A stretch of DNA of 64,000 bases. It comes from Bacteroidota bacterium. GTDB taxonomy: Bacteria > Bacteroidota > Bacteroidia > JABDFU01. Numbering within the stretch: the stretch's first letter is position 1; every line of letters starts with the position of its first letter. Positions 1 to 54,308 of the stretch are shown here, one piece after another. The notes beneath the pieces are model-generated. The model searched no databases, was not told where the DNA came from, and was given only the letters and a program-made list of their open reading frames with translations. The position numbers and the translations under genes are program-made. The stretch covers positions 1-64,000 of the forward strand of contig JACPDY010000074.1 in assembly GCA_016183775.1 (NCBI GenBank). Reading direction: 5' to 3'.

Positions 1-230
1 TGCCTGACCGGCAGGCAGGTTTGGCTTAGAACAGTAAATACCACCTCCGAATTTCCTTAAACTCAAGTAGCAGTGGCATAATTCAAATCATATAATTTCA
101 ATTTCAACTATCAGAACATTTGGTTTAACGAAAAAAATGTTAACTGAGGAAAATATTACCGTATTTCAGGAATTATTACAACAAACTAACATAGCTTCCT
201 TAATTGATACCGTTAATATAAAAGATTCAA

Positions 231-408
231 TAGAGATTATACCGAATACGAATATTATATGGAATTTTCAGAAAAACATTTGGTAAATATTTTGAGCTTT
301 CATGCCTGCCTGTCGGTAGACAGGCTTTGGTGGCGAAAATCCATTTGCCACTAAAGCACCAAAACACAAAAGCCCACCAAAAATCCTTATTCGATATAAA
401 CTCTAATA
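231..408 (+). repeat. Dispersed repeat, copy A (three copies in window)
   Basis: This stretch shares an ordered series of blocks with 4661-4812 and, reverse-complemented, with 17945-18091. The blocks are an AT-rich head beginning AGAGATT, a middle block reading close to TGCCACTAAAGCAC, and a tail ATTCGATATAAACTCTA. Copy A has a diverged head and an extra palindrome (304-325) between the AGCTTTC and TTTGGTGG blocks. It has no ORF of its own. All three copies lie directly beside two-component regulator genes. Confidence 0.75.
304..325. repeat. Short palindrome nested in repeat copy A
   Basis: The core is GCCTGTC, loop GGTA, GACAGGC, a perfect 7-bp stem, preceded by a partial GCCT repeat. Copy B of the host repeat runs directly from AGCTTTCGTG into CTTTGGTGG without it, so the palindrome looks like an insertion. 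A related palindrome is present at the equivalent place in copy C (18026-18043), and relatives occur at 1-17, 4971-4990 and 26800-26840. The behaviour is like that of REP-type elements. Confidence 0.65.
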
Positions 409-4345: not shown

Positions 4346-4660
4346 ACTGCTTTTCTCATTGCTCTTTAAAACCAAAGCCTCCTTTTGACAGGAGGCTGGG
4401 TTTGATTTCCTGTTTTCCCTGGGTCGGCTGGCTAAGAGCCCATATTAACCGATCCATGTTGTGAGGGCTTATTTCTAATTTTTTCAGATTTCTATTGATT
4501 TTGAAATCTTCATGATTTTGAAATCTTCCCTAAACAGTTAATCGTAGAAGTATATGTAATTATTATGCCAATAGTTATATTATTAATTACTAATGGATTG
4601 AGAATAATGGAATCAAATGAATGAGGAATTAATTAAAATATGTGAGAAATATTTTTCCCA

Positions 4661-4812
4661 TTAGAGATTCGAATTAGATTATTATATACAATTTCAAAAA
4701 ATATATGGGGGAAAATTTAGAGCTTTCGTGCTTTGGTGGCTAAAATTCAATTGCCACTAAAGCACAAAAACACTAAAACCCACAAAAAAGCTTATTCGAT
4801 ATAAACTCTATT
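4661..4812 (+). repeat. Dispersed repeat, copy B (lacks nested palindrome)
   Basis: The most compact copy. It has a head with GAATTAGATTATTATATAC, a middle with TTGCCACTAAAGCAC and a tail with ATTCGATATAAACTCTA. The head matches copy C at 18050-18091 (reverse strand) almost base for base. The AGCTTTCGTG block runs straight into CTTTGGTGG, so it appears to be the uninterrupted form of the element. Confidence 0.75.
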
Positions 4813-17568: not shown

Positions 17569-17946
17569 ATGAAAGAAACGATTCTTATTATAGAAGATAA
17601 CACAGATTTACGTGAAAATACCGCTGAACTTTTGGAAATAGCAGGTTACAATACCATTATAGCCAATAATGGCAAGCAGGGTTTGGAATCGGCCAGTAAA
17701 TATAAGCCCAACCTGATACTGTGCGATATTGTTATGCGGGAAGTGGATGGTTATGATGTATTACGCACATTAGAAAATACGCCGGAGGGAAGTAGAATTC
17801 CCTTCGTTTTTATAACTGCCAAGTCCGAGAAATCAGATTTGAGAAAAGGAATAGATTTAGGAGCAGATGATTACATTACAAAACCATTTACCGAGGAAGA
17901 TTTGTTAAAAACTGTTGCTGAAAGATTGAAAAAAACCATTGCTTAA
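17569..17946 (+). CDS. Single-domain response regulator
   Basis: A 125-residue receiver: E9-D10 pocket, D53 in LILCDIVMREVDGYD, T in FITAKSE and K in YITKPF. There is no output domain. The frame is open further upstream to a TTG at 17536, but the ATG at 17569 begins at the first beta strand (MKETILIIEDN) and is preferred. The stop codon overlaps the tail of repeat copy C. It lies 125 bases downstream of the ferritin-fold gene and converges on the receiver gene at 18158, so it may pair with the kinases encoded there. Confidence 0.9.
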   Translation: MKETILIIEDNTDLRENTAELLEIAGYNTIIANNGKQGLESASKYKPNLILCDIVMREVDGYDVLRTLENTPEGSRIPFVFITAKSEKSDLRKGIDLGADDYITKPFTEEDLLKTVAERLKKTIA

Positions 17947-18091
17947 TAGAGTTTATATCGAATAAATTTTTTTGTGGGTTTTAGTGCTTTTGTGCTTTAG
18001 TGGCAATCGGATTTTGGCCATCAAAGCCTGTCTGCCGGGCAGGTTTTTCCCATATATATTTTTTGAAATTGTATATAATAATCTAATTCGG
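17945..18091 (-). repeat. Dispersed repeat, copy C (inverted, with nested palindrome)
   Basis: The reverse complement matches copy B from head to tail: ATTCGATATAAACTCTA at the 17947 side and CGAATTAGATTATTATATAC at the 18091 side. A GCCTGTCTGCCGGGCAGG-type palindrome occupies 18026-18043, where copy B has AGCTTTCGTG. It fills the gap between two convergent receiver genes and overlaps the stop codon of the first, so it may also serve as a shared 3' end. Confidence 0.75.
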
Positions 18092-18157
18092 TATGATCTA
18101 ATGAAATAGTTGAAAATGTCATTAAGGGATTGGATTAGATCCCGTAAAGGAATTGTT

Positions 18158-22800: not shown

Positions 22801-25800
22801 TAATTGGTTTACGTTCTCCGTTAAATTTTTCCAGATACCGGATGTTCCGGGTACGTTTGCCTGTCCGCCTAATTTTCCGTCAACACCTACCTCACGTGCC
22901 ACCGTAGTTACCTGGTCAGCAAATACCGCGAGCGTATCAATCATTTCATTTATCGTTTCTGTTAACTGGGCAACTTCACCCTTTGCATTAATAGATAGTT
23001 TTTGCTTTAAGTTTCCTGTCGCCACCGATGTCACAACTTTAGCAATACCACGAACCTGGCTCGTCAGGTTCGAGGCCATCATATTTACGGAGTCAGTCAG
23101 ATCCTTCCAGGTTCCGGCAACACCCTGTACGGTTGATTGTCCGCCAAGTATTCCTTCCGTACCTACCTCACGTGCAACCCGGGTTACCTCGGATGTGAAT
23201 GAGTTCAGCTGATCCACCATTGTATTGATCGTATTTTTCAGATCCAATATCTCTCCTTTAACATCAATGGTTACTTTTTTGGATAAGTCGCCGCTGGCTA
23301 CTGCTTTTGTTACCTCAGCAATGTTACGTACCTGGGATGTTAAGTTCCCTGTCATCTGGTTCACCGAGTCGGTTAAATCTTTCCAGGTTCCCGCAACACC
23401 CGGTACAAATGCCTGTCCGCCGAGTTTGCCGTCTGTTCCCACTTCACGGGCTACACGCGTTACTTCTGACGCGAAAGCACGTAACTGATCCACCATCGTG
23501 TTAAGTGTTTCTTTTAATTGGAGGATCTCCCCGCGTACATCCACTGTAATTTTTTTTGACATGTCACCGTTTGCAACCGCGATCGCAACATCCGCGATAT
23601 TTCGCACCTGCGCTGTAAGGTTACCGGCCATTTGGTTCACGGAGTCTGTTAAATCCTTCCAGGTACCGGCAACACCCGGTACGTTTGCTTGTCCTCCCAG
23701 CTTTCCTTCAGTTCCAACCTCACGCGCAACACGCGTTACTTCGGAAACAAACCCCCGCAGCTGATCCACCATCGAATTGATGGTGTTTTTTAATTCAAGA
23801 ATTTCACCCTTTACGTCGACCTCAATTTTTCTTGACAAATCACCGTTTGCCACGGCTGTTGTTACTTCCGCAATGTTACGTACCTGGCCGGTGAGGTTAC
23901 TTGCCATTTTATTTACAGATTCTGTTAAATCTTTCCAGGTTCCGCCTACACCCGGCACATCGGCCTGTCCGCCGAGCTTGCCTTCAGAACCCACTTCACG
24001 CGCCACACGTGTTACCTCGGATCCGAATGAGTTCAGCTGATCCACCATTGTATTGATCGTGTTTTTTAACTCAAGAATTTCTCCTTTAACGTCAACAGTA
24101 ATTTTGCGTGATAAGTCTCCTCTCGCCACCGCTGTTGTTACTTCAGCCACATTACGCACCTGGGCTGTAAGATTACCCGCCATTTGGTTCACCGAGTCTG
24201 TTAAATCTTTCCATGTACCCGCAACGCCGGTTACCTGTGCCTGACCGCCGAGCTTACCTTCGGAACCGACCTCACGGGCTACACGTGTTACTTCCGAACC
24301 GAAGGAGTTCAGCTGGTCAACCATGGTATTAATTGTATCTTTTAATTCAAGTATTTCTCCCTTTACATCCACAGTGATTTTACGGGACAAGTCGCCTTTC
24401 GCCACCGCTGTTGTTACCTCGGCAATGTTACGCACTTGCCCGGTAAGGTTACTTGCCATCTGGTTCACCGAATCCGTTAAATCTTTCCATGTACCTCCAA
24501 CACCTTTTACTTTGGCTTGCCCGCCAAGCATCCCTTCAGTACCCACTTCCAACGCAACACGTGTTACTTCGGAAGAGAATGAGTTGAGCTGATCCACCAT
24601 CGTGTTAATGGTTTTTTTCAACTCGAGAATTTCACCCTGTACGTCTACCGTTATTTTTTTCGATAAGTCACCATTCGCAACCGCTGTTGTTACCTCGGCG
24701 ATGTTACGTACCTGTGAAGTGAGGTTACTCGCCATTTGGTTCACCGAGTCTGTTAAATCTTTCCACACACCACCAACGCCCTTTACTGTCGCCTGTCCGC
24801 CCAACTTTCCTTCCGAACCTACTTCGCGTGCCACACGCGTTACTTCCGAGCCAAAGGAATTCAACTGATCCACCATTGTATTGATTGCATTCTTTAACTC
24901 CAGGATTTCTCCTTTAACGTCAACTGTTATTTTTCTTGACAGGTCGCCATTTGCCACGGCCGTTGTTACTTCGGCAATGTTACGTACCTGACCGGTGAGG
25001 TTACTCGCCATTTGGTTTACTGAATCCGTTAAATCTTTCCAGGTGCCGGCCACTCCTTTTACCTGGGCTTGTCCACCCAGCTGACCCTCCGAACCGACCT
25101 CACGCGCTACGCGGGTTACCTCCGAACCAAATGAATTCAGCTGATCCACCATCGTGTTGATAGTATCTTTTAACTCGATAATTTCCCCTTTTACATCTAC
25201 CGTAATTTTTTTTGATAAATCTCCTTTCGCCACAGCTGTTGTTACTTCGGCAATGTTACGTACCTGACCTGTTAAATTTCCGGCCATCTGGTTCACCGAG
25301 TCCGTCAAATCTTTCCATGTGCCGGCCACACCCTTTACCTGTGCCTGTCCGCCAAGTTTTCCTTCTGTACCTACCTCAAGTGCCACACGTGTTACTTCTG
25401 ATGAGAAGGAGTTTAACTGGTCCACCATTGTGTTAATAGTATTCTTTAATTCAAGAATCTCTCCTTTAACGTCAACTGTTATTTTTTTTGATAAATCACC
25501 TTTAGCCAATGCCGTTGTTACCTCGGCAATGTTACGCACTTGTCCTGTAAGGTTACTTCCCATAAGATTCACTGAGTCCGTCAGGTCTTTCCATACACCG
25601 GATACGCCTTTTACTTTAGCCTGTCCGCCCAATTTGCCTTCAGAGCCGACTTCCCTTGCCACCCGTGTAACTTCCATGGAAAACAGATTCAGCTGTTTTA
25701 CCATGTCATTCACTTCTTTCGCTATACGGAGGAATTCGCCCTGCAACATTTGTCCTCCGATTTCAAGAGGCATTTGTTCAGATAAATTTCCTTTTGCCAC

Positions 25801-50500: not shown

Positions 50501-53500
50501 AACTGCGAATTATGCTCCATCCGTTACAACTGCCAACATAAGTAAGTCTTCCAATGGTATGTGTGCTGGTTCCGCTCGCGCCAAACTGGATTGTGCTTTT
50601 GGTGTTCATAATAAATTCATTGATACTGCTTGTTCCTGCAGTGGTAGCCGGTAAAATCGAAACAAAAGAGTTGGTTCCGGCAACAAGGCTGTCAAGAGCA
50701 AGGGTGCATGCCTGTTCATTACCTATTGTTAAGGTCGAACCCGTTCCTGTTGTTATAGTTCCGGAGCATGTAACTGTATTCGCAGTTGCAGTTGTTGCGA
50801 AAGTGGCAATGGTATTAGCCGAGGTAATTATGTTACCGGAAAATGTAGCTGTTTTGTAAAGCGTAAAAGTGTAATTATCTTTTAATCCATACGTAATACC
50901 GGTTGCATTATTAATATATATATTTCCCAGAATTCGTATCTCATCCATTGCCCTTGTAACAACACTACCCGATGGAAGCCCGAATACAGGCTCGGGGCCA
51001 AGACCTACTGTAAAACTACTCATCAACCGGACTTTTGAATAAAAGATTGAAGTTTTACCCCCAGGTGATTTGTATGATGTAGGTGTGGCAGCAGTTGCTG
51101 ATCTGCTTTGTATAAATGATCCGGTTACTTCAGCATAATCACCGTAGATCTGAAAGTCGCCCACCTTTACAGTTCCAGTAAACTGCATAATATCGGCTGC
51201 GCCCCATGTTGTACCATTTGCTCCGGAAATGGAAACAAATCTGCTGGACGTAATATTTCCGAATGTTTTTTGATTCGTATTAACACTGGAATTATCAATA
51301 TATAAAAATGCCGCGGTATCCAAAGGTGAAACATCCTGAGTTGTTATATCCCGGAATGTGATACGTTCAGATGTGGTTGCAACAGAACCGGACGTAATTT
51401 GAATCCTTCCTGTGCAATAAAAAACATTTATGTTTGGTATTGTTTTAGCTTTCGATCCGACCTCCATAGTGATCGTCGCTGCCCCCGCATAATTAAGATA
51501 GATCTGACTGGCAGCCGTGGATGATAGCGTAAAGTTTGCTGTGTTTCCCCTAAAGTCGCAGGCTGTTCCCGATCCGGATATATCTACCCTTGATGCGCCC
51601 AAGTCAAGTGTGCGGACATTATCAACTATATTACAATTTAGTACTCTGCAGCTAACAGGTTTACCATTTGTGTTTAATGTACCGTTCTGTAGACCAATTT
51701 GCCCGTAAGTGGGATTGGTTGCGTATAAAAAATCCTGTACTGTATAAGTTCCTCCCGCTGAGTTGAACGTTACATTTCCGTTAAAGGTTTGTCCGGCAGT
51801 AGTTAGTGTGAGTAAGCCAGTGCCATTAAAGGTAACATTACCTGCAAAAGTTAATGACGCTGTTGCCCATGTCCATGAACCTGAACATGTAAATGAATAG
51901 GTGTTGGAGCCTGCTACAGTCGGATTATTAAGTACACCCGTTAAATTCAGATTTTTGCAGGTGGCATTTACATTAATTGTAACGGTTTGGCCTGCAGAGC
52001 TGAAAGAATTCGCATCAAAATACACGTTATCTAAAGCTGAAGGTGGTGAATAATAAGCGCCTCCCGCTCCTCCTGATGTACTGGCCCAATGATTCATGTC
52101 ATTCCAGTTTCCTCCATTGCCTACCCAATAATAATTCACCCCGCTACCATCACGCAGACCCAATTTAAATGTGCCTCTGTATCCAAGTCCCACATAATTA
52201 TCCACGGAGATATAATATGTTGCGCCAGGAGTGAGTCCGGTATAGCTGGCCACCTGAAGTCCATATTGCTGGCCGACATAAGGAGAACATGCCAATTGAG
52301 TAAGTGATGAATTCCATAATGTTACCCAGTCGAATTGCATGGATCCTGCGGTTCCACCGGTTAATACCCCAACTTCCATGAATGTTGTTGCTGTAGCAGT
52401 GAATTTGAACCACCTGTTGTAATTTGGTCCGTTTGCGGCACATGTGCCTGCAGACCTGTCTGGTGTTGCTGCTATTGTTGTGTATGCAGCATTGGCTGAA
52501 GCGGTGTTGATCAGGGAACTTACATCAATAGCACCTTCTTTATAATTATAATCAACCACATCGTTCAGACACAACTTAAAAGTACCCCTGTATCCAAGTC
52601 CTGCATAGTTATCCACAGAAATATAATATGTAGCTCCGGGGGTAAGTCCAAGATAACTAATCTCCTGGGTTCCGTATTGTTGACCATTGTATGCAGCACA
52701 CGCTACCTGGGTAAGAGACGAATTCCATAGTGTCAGCCAGTCGAATTGCATGGAGCCGTATGAGCCTCCGGTTTTAACCTGTATGCTTATGAAAGTTGAT
52801 GCTGTAGCTGTGAATTTAAACCACCTGTTGTAATTGGGGCCGTTAGCAGCACAAGTGCCTGCTGCCTGATCTGCGGTTGCTCCTATTGTTGAATAAGCTG
52901 CATCGGCCGAGCATCCGTTGATCAAAGCGGTTACATCAATTGCGGCAACTTTATAATCATAGTCAACAGCATCATTCAGGCACAATTTAAACGTGCCGCG
53001 ATAACCAAATCCAGCATAGTTGTCCACCGAAACATAATATGTTGCACCGGGAGTAAGCCCAAGGTAACTTGCTTCATGTGTTCCATATTGCTGGCCTATA
53101 TATGGCGAACATGCAATTTGTGTGAGAGAAGAATTCCACAATGTAACCCATCCGAATTGCATTGATCCTGCGGACCCTCCGGTTATAGCCTGTACCCTTA
53201 TAAATGTTGAGGCTGTGGCAGTGAATTTAAACCACCTGTTGTAATTAGGCCCATTTGGAGAACAGCTGCCTGTTGTTTGATCTGCAGTCGCACCTATGGT
53301 TGTATACGCGGCATCCGCCGAACATCCATTGATCAATGATGTCACGTCAACCGCGGCGACTTTATAGTCGTAGTCAACGGCATCACTAAGGCACATTTTA
53401 AATGTTCCCCTGTAACCAAGTCCTACATAATTTTCTACTGAGATATAATAGATGGATCCGGGAGTAAGTCCAAGATAGCTGGCCTGATGAGTTCCGTATT

Positions 53501-54308
53501 GCTGGCCAATGTAAGGTGAGCATGATAGTTGATTAAGTGAAGCATCCCACAATGTAACCCATCCGTATTGCATTGAGCCGGCACTTCCTCCCGTTATAGC
53601 CTGGATCTTCATGAATGTTGTGGACGTAGCAGTAAATTTGAACCACCTGTTGTAATTCGGGCCGTTTGGGGCGCAACTTCCGGCCGACCTATCCCCAGAT
53701 GCTCCATAGGTTGTATATGCCGCATCGGACGAACATCCGTTGATAATAGAGGTTAGATCAGTTGCTCCTTCTTTAAAGTTATAATCAATAACATCGCTCA
53801 GGCATAACTTGAATGTTCCTCTGTAGCCGGCCCCGACATAATTATCCGCCGAAATATAATACGTTGCTCCCGGTGTAAGCCCGAGGTAGCTTGCGTGTTG
53901 AGTTCCATATTGCTGGCCGTTGTAACCGGAGCATGAAAGTTGGTTAAGCGACCCATCCCATAATGTTACCCAATCGTATTGTAATGATCCCAGTGCTCCT
54001 CCTGTCTGAAGTTGAATGCCTATATATGTTGTTGCTGTAGCTGTGAACTTGAACCAAACATTATAATTCGGCCCGTTTGCAGCGCAAGTGCCTGCTGCCT
54101 GGTCGGCTGTTGCATTAACAGTGGTGTAGGCAGCATTAGCTGAACATCCGTTAATAATCGAAGTTATATCAGTTGCGTTTGCAAAATTATCATTTGCCGG
54201 TTGAGCGAATGATAAGGTTGGTATAATAAAAGCAAATAAGACAGGCGTTGTATTTTTAAACAAGGTTCTTAAAATAAAATTTTTAACGAATCGGATATTT
54301 AAAAACAT
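47523..54308 (-). CDS. Giant secreted repeat protein, T9SS type A sorting domain
   Basis: A 2261-residue exported protein. A signal peptide (cleavage near LSFAQ, residue 35) is followed by five tandem modules of about 137 residues (about 37-725), each with a SxxNGCSxxAAYTT, GPNYNRWFKFTATA, W-VTLW-SSL, CSPY-GQQYGT and GLTPGATYYISVDNY series. A long beta-rich region follows (about 725-2170, with two YYWVG...NW sections starting near 730 and 1325, reminiscent of beta-helix or filamentous adhesin repeats). The last 80 residues are a type A sorting domain (SLFPNPVYPNTSVYLNL to IYKQKLIIR). It is a likely surface adhesin or polysaccharide-binding protein. Its tail nearly matches that of the neighbouring gene at 54405. 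Confidence 0.93.
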   Translation of the reverse strand: MFLNIRFVKNFILRTLFKNTTPVLFAFIIPTLSFAQPANDNFANATDITSIINGCSANAAYTTVNATADQAAGTCAANGPNYNVWFKFTATATTYIGIQLQTGGALGSLQYDWVTLWDGSLNQLSCSGYNGQQYGTQHASYLGLTPGATYYISADNYVGAGYRGTFKLCLSDVIDYNFKEGATDLTSIINGCSSDAAYTTYGASGDRSAGSCAPNGPNYNRWFKFTATSTTFMKIQAITGGSAGSMQYGWVTLWDASLNQLSCSPYIGQQYGTHQASYLGLTPGSIYYISVENYVGLGYRGTFKMCLSDAVDYDYKVAAVDVTSLINGCSADAAYTTIGATADQTTGSCSPNGPNYNRWFKFTATASTFIRVQAITGGSAGSMQFGWVTLWNSSLTQIACSPYIGQQYGTHEASYLGLTPGATYYVSVDNYAGFGYRGTFKLCLNDAVDYDYKVAAIDVTALINGCSADAAYSTIGATADQAAGTCAANGPNYNRWFKFTATASTFISIQVKTGGSYGSMQFDWLTLWNSSLTQVACAAYNGQQYGTQEISYLGLTPGATYYISVDNYAGLGYRGTFKLCLNDVVDYNYKEGAIDVSSLINTASANAAYTTIAATPDRSAGTCAANGPNYNRWFKFTATATTFMEVGVLTGGTAGSMQFDWVTLWNSSLTQLACSPYVGQQYGLQVASYTGLTPGATYYISVDNYVGLGYRGTFKLGLRDGSGVNYYWVGNGGNWNDMNHWASTSGGAGGAYYSPPSALDNVYFDANSFSSAGQTVTINVNATCKNLNLTGVLNNPTVAGSNTYSFTCSGSWTWATASLTFAGNVTFNGTGLLTLTTAGQTFNGNVTFNSAGGTYTVQDFLYATNPTYGQIGLQNGTLNTNGKPVSCRVLNCNIVDNVRTLDLGASRVDISGSGTACDFRGNTANFTLSSTAASQIYLNYAGAATITMEVGSKAKTIPNINVFYCTGRIQITSGSVATTSERITFRDITTQDVSPLDTAAFLYIDNSSVNTNQKTFGNITSSRFVSISGANGTTWGAADIMQFTGTVKVGDFQIYGDYAEVTGSFIQSRSATAATPTSYKSPGGKTSIFYSKVRLMSSFTVGLGPEPVFGLPSGSVVTRAMDEIRILGNIYINNATGITYGLKDNYTFTLYKTATFSGNIITSANTIATFATTATANTVTCSGTITTGTGSTLTIGNEQACTLALDSLVAGTNSFVSILPATTAGTSSINEFIMNTKSTIQFGASGTSTHTIGRLTYVGSCNGWSIIRSYTPGTAAKIAFTNAPSINYVQCKDLNITSANFTVNSGINQGNNTGITFNASPGAVSYYWVGGTAGNTKTGTYSTGNNNNWSNPDNWSLVSGSYTGTNQCVPSPQDNALFDVNSFTSVTNKTCDIDQVYTYINDLNCTGATAGSFFDNGISSSFRRTFFVSGNVTLVANMTNNYEGVFYFNAGTAKTITSNTQQFYGPMVFDNSSGDWTLADNTNINCQAGYGYYADFIMLNGTVHANATTINLEGDFNVKTNFLCGTGKVVFDGAAAQNPLDQNIDTQSSFYDLIILRANGTTQSSWVLDNTTITITHNYLNTSGFHYDGGYQITGNAANTFIMSSGSRLFLGSGSSATLFPTSYVVANISLDPTSTVYFGAEANQTVSGVPDYGNLYLVRFLPGVTVSGTTLRTKTLTEIVTVNTSIYMASYVNFYDAGFQISYDAAGPNATIMEANSQFTLGSAGTATLFPVNYTAALVDFTHPSTVVYNAGLNQTIQGLFGAGTASYSHLTCSNSPAAAATKVLNANTVIRGNLLIDPSNVMDVTAFNYSITLAGNWTDLGSFTERLGMVTYNGSALQTMSAGAAGAGTETYYDITFNNTVTPTVANGSVTIASDMVITHSGTFTDGVVTANPTTKLTIFNDDATTSGASDNSFVDGKVRKIGDDIFVYPTGDYITTTKYGPIEISMPSLTTDHFTAQYFNKSPNVPYTRTLKEVTINHVSSAEYWILDRTNGASNITPKLYWDSPRSGGVATLSLLRVAKWDGTKWINLGALNVSGNTTAGTLQTSSTVTSFSPFTLATDESGDASDNPLPVELINFTAKAVDNRYTQLNWTTSTETNNDYFTIERSIDGIDWKIIGTTKGAGNSSQILNYEKFDMEPVIGIQYYRLKQTDYDGAYQYSVSVAVNFKDTFYFSLFPNPVYPNTSVYLNLAGVIEDGHPILVVVNDAMGRQVLSKVIVVDNNNSGQVTAIDPSNTLSPGVYIISATSDNSIYKQKLIIR

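Follow-up and report, generated by a model that had tools for sequence, protein, structure and literature searches.

Three copies of one short repeat, here named A, B and C, lie in the window, that is, the whole stretch of 64,000 nucleotides of a Bacteroidota contig that was analysed. Copy A (232-404, + strand), delimited by reading of the sequence and by genome search, is bordered by AAT at 229-231 and 405-407. Copy B (4663-4809, + strand) has a small deletion in its left terminal inverted repeat (TIR) and is bordered by ATT at 4660-4662 and 4810-4812. Copy C (17948-18099, - strand) is located between two convergent response-regulator genes, with ATT (AAT on the + strand) at its low end (17945-17947) and its high end (18100-18102). 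These limits are given without the 3-bp target duplication, which is perfect in all three copies (AAT/AAT in A, ATT/ATT in B and ATT/ATT in C). In copy A a nested palindrome, CCTGCCTGTCGGTAGACAGG, occupies 305-324 (+ strand; TTTCATG^CTTTGG) and is followed by a central hairpin, GCTTTGGTGGC ... GCCACTAAAGC, at 324-357 (+ strand). The corresponding hairpin of copy B, which was also folded (as L001), lies at 4730-4763 (+ strand); the palindrome is missing from this copy, as the initial annotation of the locus had said. Copy C carries the palindrome CCTGCCCGGCAGACAGG at 18027-18043 (- strand). The contig start (window 1-20) falls within a further copy of the nested palindrome (TGCCTGACCGGCAGGCAGG), and the assembly probably broke at this repeat at window base 1. 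The window further contains two tandem arrays (22931-25714 and 52148-54176) with periods of 276 and 411 bp, both multiples of three, which probably encode repeat-rich surface proteins.

That the three copies represent one real repeat is evident from a 19-mer of the tail, which has three exact matches in the window as compared to 0.01 expected from shuffles; a fourth match is the inverted head of copy A. Head and tail of the repeat are inverted copies of one another. The initial annotation overlooked that they are TIRs; it did propose a genome search with copy B and a look for target-site duplications. Against its own 4.54-Mb genome (a draft assembly of 164 contigs, 97.7% complete) copy B found 51 pieces with E<=0.01, which correspond to about 40 separate copies. 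The repeat is ~150 bp long, has no coding capacity and is dispersed nearly always between genes. Its TIRs are imperfect, AGAG(T/A)TTATAYCGAATAAG, also given as AGAG(T/A)TTATAYCGAWTAAG. A 20-mer from the tail matched the genome 48 times, as compared to one match with a reversed-pattern control, and many of the matches were paired ~150 bp apart. A pattern joining tail and core gave no matches over the genome contigs, the TIR gave none in viral contigs, and no Rfam family matched the repeat.

From the aligned flanks we initially assumed a duplicated TA, as in IS630/Tc1 elements. Flank statistics replaced this by a 3-bp ANT. The two flanks agreed in the base outside TA in 22 of 26 clean copies, taken from the source genome and from a sister species (shuffle mean 12.7, p 5e-5); A preceded this base in 23 and T followed it in 22. 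Eighteen further elements from public genomes behaved alike (17 of 18 equal). Over all 44 elements the informative base agreed in 39, the shuffle mean being 22.3, and none of 20,000 shuffles was as good (p<5e-5). Positions beyond the AWT triplet showed no match between the two flanks. The duplicated target is thus the 3-bp AWT, with the element spanning AGAG to CTCT. A MITE-free allele of an occupied site was not recovered in our searches, and copy C showed no conserved synteny in the genus. Mobilisation by another DDE family, e.g. IS630/Tc1 acting at TA, with only convergent similarity to IS5, would account for TA at both element borders (TAGAG...CTCTA). However, the base outside TA is duplicated too (39 of 44) and the next base is nearly fixed as A or T, as for a 3-bp ANT, and four IS5-type transposase ends adjoin this TIR. 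We regard the IS630/Tc1 reading as very unlikely.

Evidence for an IS5-family mobiliser comes from the element ends. Thirty-four public-genome stretches contain the 20-bp end TAGAGTTTATAYCGAWTAAG; their titles name Bacteroidota, the neighbouring Kapaibacterium and Ignavibacteria. The elements that it delimits there are short, from 73 to about 190 bp, and have differing or unrelated interiors. At L139 such an end directly adjoins the final ~33 codons of a gene that resembles a transposase gene. Alone, this fragment of 35 residues matched no Pfam or NCBIfam family, and it led to a 1,015-bp element with two overlapping ORFs in another genome (G008; L157:1474-2488). The ORFs match DDE_Tnp_4 (PF13359, 4.9e-21) and HTH_Tnp_4 (PF13613, 1e-7); the NCBIfam model IS5_4 is matched at 7.2e-17, under its curated cut-off, the ORF being split in two. 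The ends of this element, TAGAGAATATATCGATTAAG and TAGATAGTATACCGATTAAG, agree with the MITE TIR at 17 of 20 and 15 of 20 positions, and its flanking triplets are ATT and AAT, which are not identical. Transposase genes of the same type also abut such an end at L158 and L166. By its domains the L157-type element is assigned to the IS5 family, and the shared ends indicate that the MITE was very probably moved by a transposase of this family. In the source genome, searched in its 97.7% complete assembly, neither a match to the L157 protein nor a transposase with the TIRs of the MITE was found; two other DDE_Tnp_4 proteins are present, neither with the MITE's ends. The family may thus be dead, or its mobiliser may be unsampled. 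With its TIRs, target duplication, size, copy number and an autonomous relative elsewhere, the repeat is a non-coding MITE. A literature search for an IS5-related MITE with a TA target in Bacteroid-group bacteria retrieved no report.

MITE copies fold as one long hairpin, the z values of the tested copies being about -4 to -7.5 except for copy C (z only -1.6), which carries a deletion. If transcribed, such a hairpin could possibly affect neighbouring transcripts. Two apparently orthologous MITE copies in two species (L028 and L109) have the central hairpin loop inverted as compared to other copies. Other families of the class have long hairpins of CACYAAA heptads (GCCACTAAAACAC...GTGGC) as repeats in their own right, at loci including L057, L061, L062, L066, L070, L073 and L077, and the MITE core is similar to them. 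At L040 and at L017 (~355-520 on its + strand; 2576-2741 on its - strand), repeats of another kind combine the MITE hairpin core and the context of the AAA^TTT palindrome site with different surroundings, which suggests module exchange between repeats.

The initial annotation noted that all three copies abut regulator genes and left open whether this was chance or a regulatory role. An ORF check of 34 copies placed nearly all of them between genes, often a few tens of bases from the next gene; two (L021, L024) overlap predicted ORFs, and a neighbouring gene takes its TAG stop from the MITE border in four (L014, L016, L017, L044). A non-transposon reading, in which the repeat is a conserved element that serves two-component and other regulator genes in cis or as RNA, could point to the two-component genes next to three of three window copies, to the strong fold, and to insertions apparently common to two species at the same gene (L028/L109 and L024/L072). 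Yet Response_reg domains occur in just 4 of 64 flanking proteins, and three of these four flank A and C in the window, so that the link to two-component genes is a chance, local coincidence. The flanking genes are otherwise mixed in kind, with SprB-repeat domains in 6 of the 64 proteins. Copies lie at gene starts, at gene ends and between convergent genes alike, and the target duplications are transposon features, as is the sharing of these ends by a large family of elements whose interiors are unrelated. On the tally of flanking genes we rejected a regulatory element of two-component genes, a reading that is extremely unlikely, and of the two options in the initial annotation chance is the one retained.

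The nested palindrome is a separate dispersed repeat, independent of the MITE. A loose pattern of its consensus, CCTGCCTGnCGGCAGnCAGG, gave 109+118 matches in the source genome as compared to 6+8 in controls; since a palindrome is matched on both strands, places are counted about twice. A tighter pattern was found in 87 of 395 genomes of the class, with almost no control matches; genome G011, for example, is rich in the palindrome (90+92 matches). Many unrelated loci have the palindrome on its own, and it also sits within other repeats (L078, L079-L085). A second repeat family (CAGATG^GAATA...) carries it at one fixed point (L079-L081, L083-L085, L099, L100, L104). In being a short, extragenic palindrome of high copy number it resembles REP elements. 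The GT[AG]G tetranucleotide was not found at its foot, the flanks being AAA/TTT, GTG/CTTT, ATG/GAATA or unrelated, and none of the eight Y1 transposase loci of the source genome is flanked by a full copy of it. A RAYT/Y1 mobiliser in the source genome was rejected as a candidate, several of the eight Y1 genes being near other palindromes and none being flanked by this one. Because these two defining features are lacking, we call the palindrome REP-like only. Five of the eight Y1 loci are L047-L051; several adjoin palindromes of their own, for example AACCCCGACAGGGGTT-like at L050 and GGTGCAGAGCACC at L047, and look like distinct REPtron-like units. A literature search for the letters of the present palindrome retrieved no report. 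The initial description as a REP-type palindrome in a MITE-like element is thus right in outline, as borne out by TIRs, 3-bp duplications and filled and empty copies; strict membership among the REPs does not hold.

Within the MITE the palindrome uses three sites: site 1 (AAA^TTT), site 2 (GTG^CTTT), which is the one filled in copy A, and site 3, which mirrors site 2 on the opposite hairpin arm and is occupied in L038 and L044. Each copy was scored as filled or empty by visual inspection of the aligned sequences. L003 and L008 are a natural filled/empty pair: after removal of the palindrome they share 154 identical bases with a single 1-base gap. On a tree of 43 copies (155 columns, six of 40 inner branches starred), the pattern at site 2 takes 6 gains or 20 losses, that at site 1 10 gains or 11 losses; in view of the modest branch support these counts are indicative. 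Site 2 is accordingly better explained by gains than by losses. The earlier suggestion of an excision from B is not supported for B's own site, B being one among many empty copies. The initial annotation also placed the palindrome at the same internal position in A and C. This is only partly right: it is present in both, but in copy C its left half is that of the site-1 palindrome (AAA followed by CCTGCC...) and its right half that of site 2 (...CGGCAGACAGG followed by CTTT), with ~43 nt missing between them. In copy C, then, the site-1 and site-2 palindromes seem to have been fused. Deletions of a similar kind, likewise linked to the palindrome, are seen in L032 and L041.

How the palindrome came to occupy these sites can be read in more than one way. 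It might be ancestral in the MITE and have been lost copy by copy via hairpin excision, rather than having inserted repeatedly. Palindromes are prone to deletion, and copies C, L032 and L041 carry palindrome-linked deletions. Moreover, site 1 can be explained equally well by losses (11) and by gains (10), and it is filled in all of the four G002 copies of the young subfamily as well as in at least two main branches. Against this, site 2 would take 20 losses instead of 6 gains, and the same palindrome is present at the mirror site 3 and in other repeats. An ancestral palindrome hence appears unlikely, if worth considering. Somewhat less probable still is that the palindrome, instead of being mobile itself, is carried from one of the ~40 MITE copies to another through template switching or ectopic gene conversion. 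Such transfer would fit the identical sites and orientation in divergent copies, the short, similar and hairpin-forming templates, and the loop inversion in L028/L109, which suggests template switching in the MITE family; but the palindrome stands alone at many unrelated loci and so disperses without surrounding MITE sequence at least sometimes. We propose tentatively, as a possibility that we rather doubt, that the CCTGCC palindrome is an independent 20-nt mobile element whose targets are set positions (TTTNGTG^CTTT, AAA^TTT) within stems of other mobile hairpins, the MITE serving as a reusable landing pad.

Taken together, we favour, with a probability of roughly 0.85, a ~150-bp non-autonomous MITE moved in trans by an IS5-family transposase, into which an independent REP-like palindrome has entered repeatedly; no host function is needed. 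Judged from the shared ends, an IS5-family DDE transposase acting in trans would recognise AGAG(T/A)TTATAYCGAWTAAG, insert the MITE at ANT trinucleotides and duplicate these 3 bp, the ends and the duplication being seen directly. The interior is predicted to fold back as one hairpin. As the ends start with AG after the duplicated T, a MITE inserted at the end of a gene can provide it with a TAG stop codon, as in the four cases seen, and this would help the MITE to lodge harmlessly between genes. The 20-bp palindrome would repeatedly have entered the stem at AAA^TTT and TTTNGTG^CTTT in either arm, and would sometimes be lost again or set off deletions such as the presumed fusion in copy C; for these steps we infer both the direction and an enzyme.

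Many nameless short repeats across Bacteroidota can now be linked to one IS5 transposase type, while the suggestion that the repeat regulates two-component genes is removed. The L003/L008 pair and the contrast of 6 gains to 20 losses offer means to test the spread of 20-nt palindromes in bacterial genomes.

As compared to the IS5 family (PF13359, DDE_Tnp_4), the L157 relative is alike in transposase domains and in its size of ~1 kb, its ends are common to the MITE, and the 3-bp ANT target duplication is found in the MITEs; the MITE, unlike IS5 elements, encodes nothing. For the mobiliser the ISL2-like subgroup of ISfinder, with its ANT target, may be the nearest, a placement that stays tentative since the L157 relative has two overlapping ORFs. 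The small dispersed repeats (SDR) of cyanobacteria are very short palindromic repeats within other repeats, like the present palindrome; they belong to a different phylum and are likened here by description. SDRs are named in PMC3116915, and REP dimers inserted in longer palindromes are on record for GTAG-15 of A. variabilis (PMC3733652). REP/REPIN elements and REPtrons (PMC3116915, PMC6006769) are likewise short intergenic palindromes of high copy number; the present palindrome differs by lacking the GT[AG]G foot and, in the source genome, a Y1 transposase gene that it flanks. As far as the available text of PMC9769881 goes, MITECca01 of Cardinium (Bacteroidota) has no nested palindrome, and its parent is an IS982-family element in the same genome, in both respects unlike the present MITE. 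By the same text, MITECca01 is an abundant, mostly intergenic, IS-derived MITE, and as in the present case its ends are common with those of the parental IS.
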